From positions 372,001 to 436,000 of the forward strand of contig NZ_CP156989.1 of NCBI RefSeq assembly GCF_039880525.1: a DNA stretch of 64,000 nt, in the 5' to 3' direction. Numbering within the stretch: the first letter of the stretch is position 1; the number at the start of each line of letters is the position of its first letter. The notes under the pieces were generated by a model. That model had not been told where the DNA came from, ran no database searches, and saw nothing but the letters and a program-made list of their open reading frames with translations. The stretch comes from Agrococcus sp. ProA11 (lineage in GTDB: Bacteria > Actinomycetota > Actinomycetes > Actinomycetales > Microbacteriaceae). A program made the translations under genes and the position numbers. This document shows, piece by piece, positions 16,621 to 26,517 of this stretch.

Positions 16621-16760
16621 CGTCGTATCCGCTGCGGCGCTGCCGACCTCCAAGGCGAGCCCGGTGCGCACCGCGGCGGCCACCACATACGGCACTGGCT
16701 ACGATGCGTTGGACGCTGCGCCGCTGCAGCCTCCTCGATCGCCCTCACCTTGGATGCCGA

Positions 16761-18578
16761 ATGCTTCGCAGAGTCCTCGCCGCCACCGCTGCCGTCGTGG
16801 TCGCCCTCACGGGCGCGCTCACCGCCCCAGCATCGCGGGCGGACGCCAGCGATGCGGTGCAGCTGCCCAACGGATCCGTCGTCATGGTCGAGCACCTCGA
16901 CATGGTGCGCGACACCTTCGATGCCATCAACGACTACCGCGCCAGCAAGCGACTCGGAGCGCTCCGGTTCGCACCCGACCTGTTCGAGATCGCCCAGAGC
17001 TGGAGCGACCAGCTGGTCACCACCGATCGCTTCGAGCACCGGAAGCTGCACTGGAAGCTCTACCCAGCGGGATGGGATCGCGCCGGCGAGATCATCGCGG
17101 CGCGCAGCAATGCTGACACCGCGGCGCTCGTGCGCCAGTGGATCAACTCCTCTGGCCACGAGGCGATCATGGTGTCCGACGCGACCGTGATGGCCCCCGG
17201 CATCGCGTTGGACACCGACGACGTCGCCAAGTACTTCATGTACGGCACCGTGAACTTCGGCAGGTACGACGCCGGCGAGATCCCGATGTACAACTCGATC
17301 GACGCGTGGATCGCGGCCGGCGGCACCACAGCACGCGACGACGTCGTCGGCGACGTCACGAGCGCCACTGCCGCGTCCGACGGCACCATCACCGTCAGCG
17401 GATGGGCGCTCGACTTCTCGTCTCGCAATCGCTCCTCCACGGTCCGGCTGACGCTCGATGGGCGCAGCAGCGCCACGGTGACAGCCGACCGCACGATCGA
17501 GCCGTGGGGTGCCGGGGAGTGGCGGCTGGGTCATGACTTCCGCTGGACCGTCGCCGCAGACCCGGGCGCGCGGCATGAGGTCTGTGCGGTCGCGCAGAAC
17601 AGCTTCGGGCCGGGTCAGCACCGCAACCTCGGCTGCAAGAGCGTTCTCGTGCCGATGCCGGACCCGGAGATTCCCAGCGAGCGAGTGGCCGGCGCGAATC
17701 GCTACACGACCGCGGTCGCCATCTCGACCCGCTACAACGACCCGGCGGAGGTGAGCACCGTCTACCTCGCCACCGGGGAGAAGTACCCGGATGCGCTGTC
17801 GCTGGCGCCGGCAGCGGCGCAGCCGGGCAACGCCCTGCTGCTGACTCCGCGCGCGGAGCTGGCGGCGTCGGTGGCCGCCGAGCTGCGCCGGCTGGCGCCG
17901 GAGACGGTCGTCATCGTCGGCAGCGAGCACTCGGTCTCTGCCCGCGTCGCCGAGCAGGTCGCGGCCGCGCTGCCGTATGCGGAGATCGCTCGACTCGCCG
18001 GCGCGAACCGCTACGAGACCTCGGTCATGATCGCCGACCACGCCTTCCCCGCGGCAACCCTCGCGTACGTCGCCTCCGGGCAGGTCTTCCCCGACGCGCT
18101 CTCGGCCGCGCCGGTCGCGGCGGGGCGCAACGCGCCGGTCATCCTCACCCCCGCAGCGCAGCTGCCGCAGGTCGTGCAGGACTACGTCGCGAACAGCAGC
18201 CTGCGCGAGCTGATCATCGCGGGCGGCACGCCGAGCGTCTCCGCTGGAGTCGCGAGCCAGCTCGAGGCGCAGCTCGGCTTCGTACCGCAGCGCATCGCCG
18301 GCGCCAACCGCTTCGAGACCAATCTTGAGTTGGCTGCGACGGCGAACAGCGGCGTGCAGGTCGAGGTGCTGCTGGCATCCGGTCTGAACTTCCCCGATGC
18401 GCTCGCGGGCGCCGCGGTCGCCTCGAATGCGGGCCCGTTGCTGCTGGCTCGCACCGACTGCGTCCCGCGCGAGACTGTCGCGGTCATCCACGACGAATAC
18501 CTGCCAGAGACCCTGGTGGTCCTGGGCGGCACGGCCACGCTCCGCGACACGGTGGCCGACCTCGTGCGCTGCGCCTGA
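16761..18578 (+). CDS. Secreted CAP-domain protein with three cell-wall-binding repeats
   Basis: A 605-residue surface protein. A signal peptide covers about residues 1-30 (MLRRVLAATAAVVVALTGAL). A CAP/SCP-like domain follows (about 40-180: FDAINDYRASKRLGALRF, WINSSGHEAIMV), then a beta-rich domain of unknown type (about 195-300). Three type-2 cell-wall-binding repeats end the protein, each opening with a variant of RVAGANRYTTAV, RLAGANRYETSV or RIAGANRFETNL. Such repeats hold proteins on the wall of Gram-positive bacteria non-covalently. The CAP module lacks an obvious catalytic role. The upstream part of the open frame overlaps tRNA-Ser(GCU), so ATG at 16761 with its signal peptide is used. 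Confidence 0.88.
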   Translation: MLRRVLAATAAVVVALTGALTAPASRADASDAVQLPNGSVVMVEHLDMVRDTFDAINDYRASKRLGALRFAPDLFEIAQSWSDQLVTTDRFEHRKLHWKLYPAGWDRAGEIIAARSNADTAALVRQWINSSGHEAIMVSDATVMAPGIALDTDDVAKYFMYGTVNFGRYDAGEIPMYNSIDAWIAAGGTTARDDVVGDVTSATAASDGTITVSGWALDFSSRNRSSTVRLTLDGRSSATVTADRTIEPWGAGEWRLGHDFRWTVAADPGARHEVCAVAQNSFGPGQHRNLGCKSVLVPMPDPEIPSERVAGANRYTTAVAISTRYNDPAEVSTVYLATGEKYPDALSLAPAAAQPGNALLLTPRAELAASVAAELRRLAPETVVIVGSEHSVSARVAEQVAAALPYAEIARLAGANRYETSVMIADHAFPAATLAYVASGQVFPDALSAAPVAAGRNAPVILTPAAQLPQVVQDYVANSSLRELIIAGGTPSVSAGVASQLEAQLGFVPQRIAGANRFETNLELAATANSGVQVEVLLASGLNFPDALAGAAVASNAGPLLLARTDCVPRETVAVIHDEYLPETLVVLGGTATLRDTVADLVRCA

Positions 18579-19001: not shown

Positions 19002-19074
19002 GCGCCCGTAGCTCAACGGATAGAGCATCTGACTACGGATCAGAAGGTTGGGGGTTCGAATCCCTCCGGGCGCG
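19002..19074 (+). tRNA. tRNA-Arg (ACG anticodon)
   Basis: GCGCCCG (19002-19008) pairs with CGGGCGC (19067-19073) and the discriminator is G. The anticodon stem TCTGA/TCAGA holds loop CTACGGA (ACG). The A34 of this tRNA is the substrate of the TadA deaminase encoded at 30206-30667. No CCA is encoded. Confidence 0.97.
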
Positions 19075-19093
19075 CACTGTGTTGAGACAGTCG

Positions 19094-19123
19094 GAAGGCC
19101 ACTTGCGAGAGCAGGTGGCCTTC
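19094..19123 (+). terminator. Intrinsic terminator after tRNA-Arg
   Basis: The 13-nt arms 19094-19106 and 19111-19123 pair with one G-U across a GAGA loop and are followed by TTGGTTT. Confidence 0.8.
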
Positions 19124-19179
19124 TTGGTTTCCGCACCCGACCGTCGTCCCCACCCGTGGCGCTATGCCAGGATTGCGCC

Positions 19180-19452
19180 GTGCTGCAGCGCAGAGACGAG
19201 TGGTTGACGGCCGGCGGCGTCTACGACGGTGACGTCGTGATCCATCCGGTCGCCGGTGACACCGTCACGATCGTGATGATGATGCAGCTGCGCCCGATGG
19301 AGATGTGCTTCGTGTCGGGAGTCGTGGAGTTCGACCCTCTCGACAGCAAGAGCCTCAACGCGATCGATGACGCTGGGCAGGGTGAACTCGTGATCGACCC
19401 CAGCGACGCGATCTACCGGATCTGGCGCTATGTGCCGAATAAGCGCCGCTGA
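19180..19452 (+). CDS. Hypothetical protein, 90 residues
   Basis: I do not recognise this protein. It is soluble, slightly acidic in its second half, and carries MMMQLRPMEMC followed by VEFDPLDSKSLNAIDD. GTG at 19180 is preferred, since the longer frame would start inside tRNA-Arg and cross its terminator; an A/T-containing stretch (TATGCCAGGAT, 19164-19174) just upstream may be its promoter. It ends 33 bp before a convergent gene. Confidence 0.55.
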   Translation: MLQRRDEWLTAGGVYDGDVVIHPVAGDTVTIVMMMQLRPMEMCFVSGVVEFDPLDSKSLNAIDDAGQGELVIDPSDAIYRIWRYVPNKRR

Positions 19453-19485
19453 CCGCAGAGCACCAGCAGGCAAGTCCGAGTGGGC

Positions 19486-19992
19486 TCAGGCGCCTTCGGT
19501 CGACGTGACGCACTCGCAGCCGGGGTGCCCGATGCTCCGGCACTCCTCGGAGTAGGCGCTCAGCACGGCGTGCTCGAAGACGAAGAAGTGTGGGGAGATC
19601 AGTCGCTGCACGGGCCCCGGGAGGCGGGCGGCCGCGCGATGCAGCGGGTTGCCGACGGTGAGCTCTGCGGCATGCACGGCGACGTACAGGATGGTGATGA
19701 GTGAGAAGAGCGTGAAGCCCTGCCCCTCGGGGTTCAGCACGGCGGTGAGCTGCAGCAGGATGACGAGCGCGAGCACCAGGTGGATGAGCGGGGCGCGTCG
19801 CAGTCGCGCTCGCGCCGCCTCGCGACCGAAGTCGGTCGAGGCGAGCACGGCAGTGGCTGCAGCGATGCGGTGTGCTTCCTCGTGCGGGGTGTGCTCGATG
19901 GCGGCGAGACGACCGATGCGCTCGGCTCGCTGCACGTACTGCTCCAGGACCGCGAAAGCGCGCTCGCTGTCCGAGTCGTCGGCCTCACTCAT
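19486..19992 (-). CDS. Two-helix membrane protein of unknown function
   Basis: A 168-residue protein. The N-terminal 75 residues are charged and helical (SDSERAFAVLEQYVQRAERIGRL). Two membrane helices follow (around LIHLVLALVILLQLTAVL and FTLFSLITILYVAVHAAEL), then a C-terminal tail with three cysteines (EECRSIGHPGCEC) that could bind a metal or form disulfides. ATG at 19992 is used because GGGAGGGAG precedes it at the right distance. On its strand it lies just downstream of the 34-residue peptide gene, from which a terminator separates it. Confidence 0.6.
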   Translation of the reverse strand: MSEADDSDSERAFAVLEQYVQRAERIGRLAAIEHTPHEEAHRIAAATAVLASTDFGREAARARLRRAPLIHLVLALVILLQLTAVLNPEGQGFTLFSLITILYVAVHAAELTVGNPLHRAAARLPGPVQRLISPHFFVFEHAVLSAYSEECRSIGHPGCECVTSTEGA

Positions 19993-20068
19993 CGAGATCT
20001 CCCTCCCCGTCAATCCTCTCGCAGTTCGGCGCCGGATTCGACCGCGTGCGCGCCCGAGAAAAGCCGAA

Positions 20069-20102
20069 GCCGCGGTGCCGACTCGGGAGTCGGTACCGCG
20101 GC
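20069..20102 (-). terminator. Terminator of the 34-residue peptide gene
   Basis: The 16-nt arms 20069-20084 and 20087-20102 pair with one G-U. On the minus strand the hairpin starts 19 nt after the peptide stop and is followed by TTCGGCTTTTC, a reasonable U-rich tail. Confidence 0.75.
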
Positions 20103-20121
20103 CGCGGGTTCGTGCAGGTCG

Positions 20122-20226
20122 TTACATAATGATGTCGTCATCGCCGGTGATGATCGACATGATGATGTCGTCATCGCCGCCGAGCGTGACCAGCAGGTGG
20201 GTGGGAAGTTGCTCGTATCGCTTCAT
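20122..20226 (-). CDS. 34-residue acidic peptide with duplicated GDDDIIM motif
   Basis: The protein begins MKRYEQLPTHLLVTLGG and then reads DDDIIM, SIIT, GDDDIIM, stop. The first 17 residues look leader-like. The second half is two copies of GDDDIIM encoded by 21-nt repeats (20158-20178 and 20125-20145) that differ at one position. It has a GGAGAG ribosome site four bases before the ATG, a sigma-type promoter (20294-20266) and a terminator (20102-20069), so it is a free-standing small gene. There is no Cys and too much acid for a membrane peptide. A ribosomally made, modified peptide precursor or a metal-binding peptide are possible; no maturation enzyme is recognised beside it. Function unknown. 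Confidence 0.65.
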   Translation of the reverse strand: MKRYEQLPTHLLVTLGGDDDIIMSIITGDDDIIM

Positions 20227-20265
20227 TGCTCTCCAGTCGCCGTGCAGGGATCCCCGCTACTTCCG

Positions 20266-20294
20266 TTTATAGCCGGTAGCAGCAAGGACGTCTA
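20266..20294 (-). promoter_or_regulatory. Promoter of the 34-residue peptide gene
   Basis: On the minus strand TAGACG (-35, 20294-20289; four of six consensus bases) and TATAAA (-10, 20271-20266) are 17 bp apart. The predicted start leaves a leader of about 30 nt before the ribosome site. Confidence 0.65.
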
Positions 20295-20318: not shown

Positions 20319-20741
20319 TCAGTTCTCTAGCGTCGCGGATTCGAGCGAGATCTCCACTCCTGCGAGCGCCTGCGAGACGGGGCATCCCTGCTCGGCCTGA
20401 CCGGCGAACTCGGTGAACTGCTCCTGGTCGATGCCCGGCACGCGCCCGCTCACGCTCAGCACGCTCTTGGTGATGCCGGTGCCCGCGACGAACGTCACCT
20501 TGGCGCTCGTCGAGAGCGACTCGGCGGTGTGGCCTGCCTCCGAGAGGATGTTCGACAGCGCCATCGAGAAGCACGATGCGTGCGCGCCGGCGATGAGCTC
20601 CTCCGGTGTGGTGCCGCCCTGCGACTCCGCGCGGGCCTTCCACGACATGTCGAAGCTGGTGCCGGCGCCGAGGGTGGCGGTTCCGCTGCCAGTGGCGAGG
20701 TCTCCGCTCCAGGTTGCGCTGCCGTTCGACGTGATGGCCAT
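20319..20741 (-). CDS. osmC: OsmC family peroxiredoxin
   Basis: This 140-residue thiol peroxidase reduces organic hydroperoxides. It shows TPEELIAGAHASCFSMALS (first catalytic Cys) and QGCPVSQAL (second Cys), the OsmC/Ohr pair; the TPEEL motif and length favour the OsmC subgroup over Ohr. A consensus AAGGAGG precedes the ATG. There is no OhrR-type regulator next to it. Confidence 0.93.
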   Translation of the reverse strand: MAITSNGSATWSGDLATGSGTATLGAGTSFDMSWKARAESQGGTTPEELIAGAHASCFSMALSNILSEAGHTAESLSTSAKVTFVAGTGITKSVLSVSGRVPGIDQEQFTEFAGQAEQGCPVSQALAGVEISLESATLEN

Positions 20742-24850: not shown

Positions 24851-24904
24851 CAGCGACGCCCGGCGCGCGAGCTGTCAGTGGCACTCGCGACTACCGTGGT
24901 GGTC

Positions 24905-25822
24905 ATGCCCTCCACTGCACTGCTGGCTGTCATCGAGCGTGACGGCTTCCTCGAGTCCGAGCACCACGGCGTCGCCGTCGCGATCGATCCCGGCGGCGCC
25001 GTCATCGAGTCGCACGGCGACAGCACCAAGGCGTTCCTCTCGCGCAGCAGCCTCAAGCCGCTCTATGCCGCCGCGCTCATCGACGCCGGCCTGATCGCAC
25101 TCGAGCCCGCCCACGCGGCGCTCGCGAGCGCCAGCCACTTCGCCGAGCAGCAGCATGTCGACACTGCCGCAGGCATGGCGACCGCGCACGGCGTCGACGA
25201 GGCTGCCCTGCGCTGCCTGCCGATGACGGCGCCCGATGGCACGCAGCGTCGCTTCGCCCACATGTGCGTGGGCAAGCACATCGCGCTCGCGGCTGCCGCG
25301 CGCACCATGGGCGCGAGCGCCGACTACTGGGCCGACGACCACCCGCTCGCCAGGGTGCTGCGCGACGGTGTCGCTGCTGCGGCGGACGAGCCGATTCGGC
25401 AGTTCGCGCACGATGGCTGCGGCGCCCTGGTGTTCCCGACCACGGCGGTCGGCCTTGCGCGCGGCTTCCGGCGTCTGGCCCCGGACGGCACAGGAGCGCA
25501 CCGGCTCATCGGCGAGGCCATGCGCGCGCATCCGACACTGGTCGACGGCACCGGCAAGCCCGACGCCGTCGTCATCGCCGAGACGGGATGCACGACCAAG
25601 TTCGGGGCCGAGGGCACGCAGGCGATGGTCGCCCCAGACGGCACGACGGCGGTCGTGAAGACGGCTGACGGCGCCCGGCGCGCCGGTGCGCCCGTCGCCC
25701 TTGCGCTGCTCGAGCGCGCGGGCGCGATCCCCGCTGGCACGCTCGAGCGGCTCGCCGAGCCGCTCGGCCTGCTGCAGATGAGTGCCGACGAGCCGGTTGG
25801 TCGCCTCCGCGTCGCGATCTAG
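24905..25822 (+). CDS. L-asparaginase II family protein
   Basis: This 305-residue protein belongs to the asparaginase II family (thermolabile, Rhizobium AnsA-like), distinct from the E. coli type enzymes. It shows HHGVAVAIDPGG, SSLKPLYAAAL, the conserved CSGKHIAL-like segment as CVGKHIAL, and DGCGALVFP. The expected Ser before GKH is replaced by Val. ATG at 24905 is 7 nt after TACCGT (24892-24897); an in-frame ATG at 24878 lies upstream of that box. Confidence 0.85.
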   Translation: MPSTALLAVIERDGFLESEHHGVAVAIDPGGAVIESHGDSTKAFLSRSSLKPLYAAALIDAGLIALEPAHAALASASHFAEQQHVDTAAGMATAHGVDEAALRCLPMTAPDGTQRRFAHMCVGKHIALAAAARTMGASADYWADDHPLARVLRDGVAAAADEPIRQFAHDGCGALVFPTTAVGLARGFRRLAPDGTGAHRLIGEAMRAHPTLVDGTGKPDAVVIAETGCTTKFGAEGTQAMVAPDGTTAVVKTADGARRAGAPVALALLERAGAIPAGTLERLAEPLGLLQMSADEPVGRLRVAI

Positions 25823-25827
25823 CGCGA

Positions 25828-26517
25828 TCAGGGGCGCGGCAGCAGCTGCCAGCTGCCCTCGGAGACGACCTCGACCTCGCCGTCGACGACCGTGATGGCG
25901 GTCGCGTCGTCGATGGCATAGGTGGGCGCCGGGATTCCGGATGCCCACTGGGTGATGCTCGCCAGCGAGGCGTCCTCCATGTCGTCCTGATCGAGGTGCG
26001 GGTAGAGGGCGAAGTCGACCAGCCCGAGGGTCCTGTCTGCCTCCAGCGCCATGTCGCTGCCGTCGGGCACGAACGCGAGGTTGAACGCCGCGTCCGGGTT
26101 GAACGATGTGACGGCGATGCTGCCAGCGCTGACGCCCACGTAGACGGTGTCGGGCATCGCATCGAGCAGATCGGCGAGGCCCGACTGCCGCATCCAATGG
26201 CACAGGTAGAGCACGTCGCCGCCCCAGACGAGCAGCGCATCGACGCTCCGCACGACGGGCACCCAGTGCTCCTCGCGGATGGTCGGCAGCGCGGTGAGCT
26301 CCAAGACCCCCAGCCACTTCCAGCCGAGCTCGGCCATGGGGCCCGGGGCGTTGCCGGAGATCGCCTCCCACGCCATGCTGGCGCCGACGGGGAACGGATA
26401 GGCGGCCGTGGGGATGATGAGCGCCGTGGACTCGGCGATGGGCTTGCCGAGCAGGCCCACGAGTGCGCCCTCGATGCTCGCGTTGCTGATCCCCATGGAG
26501 GTGAGCAGGAACTTCAC
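25828..26517 (-). CDS. Peptidase S51-like (type 1 glutamine amidotransferase fold)
   Basis: This 229-residue protein resembles dipeptidase E: LLTSMGISN at the start, ALIIPTAAYPFP, VWGGDVLYLCHWM and the nucleophile elbow YVGVSAGSIAV with Ser in place of the amidotransferase Cys. PepE cleaves Asp-X dipeptides; the substrate here is unknown. The GTG start is overlapped by the TGA of a nine-codon leaderless mini-ORF (GTGA), so its expression probably depends on coupling. Confidence 0.8.
   Translation of the reverse strand: MKFLLTSMGISNASIEGALVGLLGKPIAESTALIIPTAAYPFPVGASMAWEAISGNAPGPMAELGWKWLGVLELTALPTIREEHWVPVVRSVDALLVWGGDVLYLCHWMRQSGLADLLDAMPDTVYVGVSAGSIAVTSFNPDAAFNLAFVPDGSDMALEADRTLGLVDFALYPHLDQDDMEDASLASITQWASGIPAPTYAIDDATAITVVDGEVEVVSEGSWQLLPRP

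Follow-up and report, generated by a model that had tools for sequence, protein, structure and literature searches.

Behind osmC in the genome of Agrococcus sp. ProA11, a minus-strand reading frame of 34 codons carries the same heptapeptide twice. Is such a short frame a gene, and what could a peptide built in this way do? We approach both questions from the window, by which we mean the whole analysed stretch of 64,000 nucleotides, and from comparison with related genomes.

A peptide gene behind osmC

A sequence-only reading had proposed a 34-codon peptide gene on the minus strand behind osmC, with two 21-nt repeats that differ at one base and each encode GDDDIIM. Direct reading of the letters bears out both statements. 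The frame translates as MKRYEQLPTHLLVTLGGDDDIIMSIITGDDDIIM followed by a stop codon, and the single difference between the two units is ATC against ATT. A direct-repeat search at the gene returned a 23-nt repeat of 96% identity at a spacing of 33, and the genome of the window holds one match to the peptide. The features of the locus are collected in Table 1.

Table 1. Features of the peptide locus (positions in the window)
Feature	Position	Strand	Basis
G+C-rich hairpin of 18 pairs, then CTTTTCT; putative terminator	20064..20107	-	terminator scan and RNA fold
Peptide CDS, 34 residues, stop codon included	20122..20226	-	direct reading; intact relatives in 17 of 20 neighbourhoods, window genome included
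Second unit, GDDDIIM, silently different at one base from the first	20125..20145	-	repeat search, DNA pattern, copy comparison
First unit, GDDDIIM	20158..20178	-	repeat search, DNA pattern, copy comparison
N-terminal part MKRYEQLPTHLLVTLG, lineage-dependent	20179..20226	-	comparison of relatives
GGAGAG, putative ribosome-binding site	20229..20234	-	letters and RBS-like sequence in relatives; function inferred
TATAAA, putative -10 element	20266..20271	-	read by eye across loci; word count in window
TAGACG, putative -35 element	20289..20294	-	inferred from letters
osmC (OsmC family peroxiredoxin), constant upstream neighbour	20319..20741	-	annotation and neighbourhood comparison

Neighbourhoods of osmC (some 8 kb to either side, except in G020 with about 5.5 and 10.5 kb) were compared in 20 Agrococcus genomes. 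In 17 of them an intact frame of 32-38 codons containing IIM lies on the same strand, 89-166 nt behind the osmC stop; the script required IIM in the frame, and the unit is thus a condition of this count. An RBS-like sequence and a hairpin accompany the frame in the 17 loci. Because frame, RBS-like sequence and hairpin recur together in 17 of 20 neighbourhoods, more than chance must be at work, and the comparative evidence indicates that the peptide gene is real, with putative transcription, translation and product. Frame-destroying changes beside preserved hairpins, named beforehand as the observation that would speak against a peptide, were not seen in any of the 17 ORF-bearing loci.

Within the genus, a profile search with the peptide found 13 of 24 genomes at E <=0.1, and reading behind osmC added four more divergent peptides. 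Sixteen of the 24 genomes carry matches to a DNA pattern for D-[D/G]-x-I-I-M, all listed matches lying at the peptide locus, with 0 matches for the reversed-pattern control. osmC itself was matched in 22 of 24; the assemblies of the other two, G009 and G015, are incomplete (65% and 86%). A midpoint-rooted tree of the 20 genomes was built from four linked proteins (osmC, FKBP, FAD oxidase and His phosphatase, FKBP missing in three basal genomes). The 17 carriers form its crown clade, and G023, G021 and G008, without the frame, are a separate basal branch. These three and two further genomes with osmC that stand outside the 20 neighbourhoods (G002 and G012) contain no D..II in any osmC-strand frame within 600 nt behind osmC. 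The best explanation is vertical inheritance of the gene in the crown Agrococcus clade.

Outside the genus, profiles gave no convincing match in 398 genomes of the family (profile A1) or 396 of the order (profile A2). The stronger hits (L037-L040, L264, L265; E 0.003-0.08) were dismissed as parts of open frames of 248-1491 residues, and weaker ones (E 0.07-1.7) were dismissed along with them, not each being read. A single-unit DNA pattern matched 46 of 398 family genomes, eight of them Agrococcus; the 22 loci read from the other 38 (L103-L124) lie in long frames, the remaining 18 rows carrying no locus. A double-unit pattern, which is exact and misses even the window's own genome, matched seven of 398: six Agrococcus and G157, where the match lies inside a 394-residue frame. 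Among 103 motif matches (L103-L204), 17 had an open frame of <110 residues or lay <=15 residues from the frame end; two of these belong to Agrococcus baldri and the other 15 were judged unrelated by eye. The matches listed in the named-genome pattern scan are a lower bound and do not prove absence elsewhere. Plasmids and phages gave no peptide match in a protein search, nor did viral contigs with one double-unit pattern. Among the genomes searched, the distribution therefore appears narrow, confined to the genus Agrococcus with no convincing match beyond it.

The heptapeptide unit and its copies

Compared across species, the repeated element is a heptapeptide G-D-x-[D/F/W]-I-I-M, with E or D as first residue in some. 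It occurs once in one genome, twice in 15 and three times in one. The multi-copy peptides use five unit sequences (GDDDIIM, GDDFIIM, EDDFIIM, DDDFIIM and GDGWIIM), and a sixth, GDPWIIM, belongs to the single-copy form. Four classes can be told apart. Class A (seven genomes) has an MK....LPTHLLVTLG-like part, GDDDIIM, a four-residue spacer and a C-terminal GDDDIIM. Class B (two) begins with MK..KP.RR, followed by two or three GDDFIIM, and class C (six) with M.FKQLPTHL..., followed by two [E/D]DDFIIM and then GGGS. Class D (two) begins with MRPNKNDL... and continues with two GDGWIIM or one GDPWIIM. Glycine stands at many unit borders, and in class C as well as in G006 the last unit is followed by a G-rich tail (GGGSL, GGGSSK, GGGDD). 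The 17-residue leader ending in LGG, as originally described, holds in the window's clade and fails outside it.

In the tree, class D splits first among the 17 and classes C and A group by class; support is weak (0.133-0.891) on the branches that separate B, C and A. G006 (L250, L047) stands inside clade A with support 1.000 yet has a B-type peptide, its N-terminal part and unit having changed together; this looks like a type switch or a local exchange.

Selection acts at the protein level and is strictest on the heptapeptide unit. For class A pooled, pS is 0.334 and pN 0.102; the units have pN 0.000 against pS 0.286, and the remainder of the peptide pN 0.188 against pS 0.355. These values come from 21 pairs, not independent of one another, among seven class A sequences from the seven nearest genomes. 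Neighbouring copies within a peptide are protein-identical over seven residues in all 17 pairs, with 19 silent base differences in total. In G011 the equality covers seven residues and not eight, since its two copies are preceded by different residues. Since the copies change together, either one reader selects all of them or gene conversion keeps them alike; the silent differences left between copies would speak against recent conversion of whole units.

Judged from these alignments, the most constrained part is the unit and not the leader, and the invariant residues are D and I-I-M, not the acid run. This bears on the reading of the peptide as a metal binder or metal sensor with the aspartates as ligands. 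DDD is present in every class A unit and the net charge is -3 to -5 in 15 of 17 peptides, as one would expect of such a function. G007 and G017, however, carry GDGWIIM or GDPWIIM, which lack DDD and have one acidic residue per unit in a peptide of net charge +1; the unchanging part is I-I-M, and no metal gene occurs among the neighbours named. The metal-binding reading fares poorly against these peptides, and we consider it very improbable.

Putative signals and the hairpin

The upstream words TAGACG and TATAAA, their 17-bp spacer and GGAGAG are present in the sequence and order first reported, with putative functions. GGAGAG ends only 2 nt before the start codon. The TATAAA is the sole TATAAA/TTTATA on either strand of the 64-kb window (70.7% G+C), and a generic sigma-70 promoter scan of the window did not list the putative promoter of the peptide. 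When the loci were read by eye, TATAAA was found at the aligned place in eight of 17 (six class A and both class B). Similar words occur in G004 (TATGAA), G007 (TATAAC), and G017 and G013 (both TACAAC). In the remaining five loci, all of class C, TACATT stands in an upstream block of another kind, and the TATAAA-like words are missing. The peptide gene of classes A, B and D has a -10-like element of its own.

The same reading by eye (loci L041-L048, L053, L056 and L057) revealed a possible operator: a block like GCAAAGTTNCC or GGAAACTTTGC precedes the -10 in classes A, B and D. In class C, ACATTCAGCAGTAG or a near-identical block takes its place.

On the other side of the frame, the terminator hairpin proposed from the letters is present, and its 16-bp arm gives way to 18 pairs (3+9+6) in the fold. 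A 213-nt stretch with this hairpin has a folding z of -3.57, and the one site listed by the terminator scan lies within the hairpin, with 0.7 expected by chance. In each of the 17 loci the 75 nt 3' of the stop fold around a strong hairpin, with -40 to -60 kcal/mol for the stretch; a T run follows it in only some of them by reading. An Rfam search with 501 bases gave three matches, all far under gathering scores (best E 0.091). The stem words GCGGCCGCGG/CCGCGGCCGC (20096-20107) recur at seven other sites of the window (383, 10155, 42334, 43957, 43993, 49009 and 56603) and are perhaps a common terminator stem of this genome.

Might the DNA or RNA be what is kept, as a small RNA or as hairpins, with the frame incidental? 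The GAT/GAC and ATC codons can pair, and the hairpin behind the stop is universal among the loci. In six of 17 species few synonymous recodings (<=10 of 200) equal the natural coding RNA in stability, with codon weights taken from osmC genes alone, a rough reference. The other 11 species fail this mark, however, and the class A units carry only silent changes. An incidental frame is highly improbable in our view.

The neighbourhood

In all 17 neighbourhoods the shared genes lie on the osmC side (query ORFs from G000, G001, G007 and G011). In the window they are asparaginase II, two O6-methylguanine methyltransferase-type genes, His phosphatase, FAD-linked oxidase, FKBP and osmC. On the other side no query was found in all 17, the best reaching 13, at the position of a cold-shock gene. 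The idea that repeat number would vary between fixed flanks holds for the copy number, which runs from 1 to 3, and for the osmC flank, and breaks down at the flank called a membrane protein. This neighbour, of 175 residues or of 168 when read from its ATG, is matched in no more than 8 of 24 genomes, with identity under 40% in three of those, and it was rejected as partner of the peptide. A profile search with it, proposed as a way to recognise a maturase or transporter fold, gave no Pfam or NCBIfam match.

The order of a short frame and a strong hairpin, with a same-strand gene beginning 108 nt behind the peptide in the window, invites comparison with an attenuator, where translation of the peptide would control the hairpin and a downstream gene. 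A same-strand ORF directly behind the peptide is found in only three of 17 loci (G000, G013 and G020), with G004 a doubtful fourth on which two runs of a crude ORF caller disagree, and what follows at 149 nt in G019 and 146 nt in G003 is a convergent tRNA gene. As a general role attenuation is contradicted by these followers, and we regard it as extremely improbable. Because 13 of 17 loci have no same-strand ORF directly behind the peptide, the peptide itself is likely to be the product.

A convergent tRNA-Arg lies 0.15-4.7 kb beyond the peptide in 13 of 17 neighbourhoods; in the other four it is outside the stretch, if present. The zone between peptide and tRNA-Arg (19002-20122 in the window) varies in length in the 13 species, a pattern reminiscent of insertion hot spots at tRNA genes. 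Farther out, 16665-18578 encodes a protein that combines three stretches of cell-wall-binding repeats (CWB2) with a CAP domain, adjoining a LytR-CpsA-Psr gene. On the osmC side, asparaginase II and peptidase S51 genes stand side by side at 24878-26517, some 5-5.6 kb from the aspartate-rich peptide; the asparaginase is present in 17 of 17 neighbourhoods and the peptidase in five, and the pairing is probably coincidence.

Comparison with known peptides

Thirteen peptide variants (alignment A2) gave nothing convincing against Pfam, NCBIfam, PHROGs or PADLOC. The best values, each from one member, were 0.05 for an NCBIfam glycosyltransferase, 0.32 in Pfam and 0.23 in PHROGs; PADLOC had none. A profile search of solved structures returned no match to E 10, and AlphaFold2 on the single sequence proposed short strands at a confidence too low to build on (mean pLDDT 66, pTM 0.27). 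Literature searches for four unit forms as text strings, for an Agrococcus peptide with osmC and for multi-core repeat RiPP precursors in Microbacteriaceae found no match.

Several known systems resemble the peptide in part. Lineage-restricted bacterial microproteins are likewise short, intergenic, narrowly distributed and selected at the protein level; the Agrococcus peptide differs from them by tandem identical heptapeptides that change together between species and by its fixed place behind osmC. Streptococcal SHP-like pheromones are short, with an acidic start and then a branched hydrophobic run, of about seven residues; in the Agrococcus peptide, by contrast, classes B and D lack a hydrophobic leader, the unit comes in several copies, and no regulator was recognised in the vicinity. 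The C-terminal tail of SSB has an acidic run followed by hydrophobic residues and a proline-phenylalanine end. Class A alone shares the acidic run and hydrophobic C-terminus; in the other three classes the peptide runs on past the unit, and the proline-phenylalanine end is missing. Mimicry of an SSB tail was set aside, as the unit is not C-terminal in B, C and D; a sigma finger was a further candidate. A paper on leaderless bacteriocins names Agrococcus sp. SL85, with a peptide class that differs by its description (PMC11580447).

Possible models of peptide action

We suggest, at a probability of roughly 0.4, that the gene encodes an unmodified, lineage-restricted microprotein with repeated docking motifs for one partner. 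The peptide gene would be transcribed on its own behind osmC, which might connect it to stress, and the peptide would remain intracellular and unmodified. The unit, an aspartate with a short strand-forming I-I-M run, would serve to dock the peptide onto a single partner. Having the same unit two or three times would increase avidity or allow two partner molecules to be bridged, and the N-terminal part, specific to each lineage, would tune the site or strength of action. Copies that are equal within a peptide and different between species are what one expects if one partner reads every copy. Yet equal copies are also expected from gene conversion or a multi-core precursor, G-rich tails and border glycines would suit a precursor that is cut, and a conserved partner alone would not explain unit sequences that change between species.

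The alternative suggested by these last points is that heptapeptides are released from a precursor with one to three cores. Unlinked enzymes would modify it (a RiPP), or it would be cut to give an unmodified signal. The N-terminal part would then be a leader, the unit a core and the glycines cut sites. The copy number of one to three fits this arrangement, and so do units that agree inside each precursor yet vary from species to species, the leader-like N-terminal part, the glycine borders and the G-rich tails. Multi-core RiPP precursors are known to share the order of N-terminal part and repeated cores: microviridin AMdnA has three cores in one precursor (PMC5934393). The Agrococcus peptide departs from them in several ways. 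No known RiPP enzyme, maturation or transporter gene was recognised among the conserved neighbours given to Pfam, which have household annotations, and the S51 gene, about 5.6 kb off, is present in 5 of 17 only. The PqqD and MNIO families are each absent from all 24 genus genomes (positive in 3 and 2, respectively, of 14 control genomes). The unit contains neither Cys nor Ser, Thr or Lys, and lacks the residues that are usually modified; the leader varies and the core is constant, opposite to what is usual; and by eye classes B and D have no signal-peptide-like or hydrophobic export stretch.

The modified-peptide system first envisaged for this locus is weakened by the missing linked maturation gene, the PqqD and MNIO results and the varying leader. 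We hold the precursor reading as a whole to be doubtful, though a serious competitor. In a narrower form, the product would be a heptapeptide of GDxxIIM type, from a one-to-three-core precursor without a linked enzyme. Its core type would be species-specific, switched as in G006, and either an unlinked receptor would read it or an enzyme of unrecognised kind, also unlinked, would mature it; this version seems to us unlikely. The docking microprotein and the precursor both predict equal copies, and differ in the final form, which is the whole peptide in the former and the heptamer in the latter. The rest of the probability is shared by metal binding, a role of the RNA, attenuation and functions not foreseen here.

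The locus clearly exemplifies the very short genes of bacteria: none of the family libraries searched contains it, and what is conserved in it is a unit of seven residues. Its natural one-, two- and three-copy variants, with five multi-copy unit types, make a ready experiment on how repeated motifs act and how copies are kept equal. If the unit is indeed released, Agrococcus would possess a family of small peptides without a gene cluster, of the kind that cluster-based mining misses.
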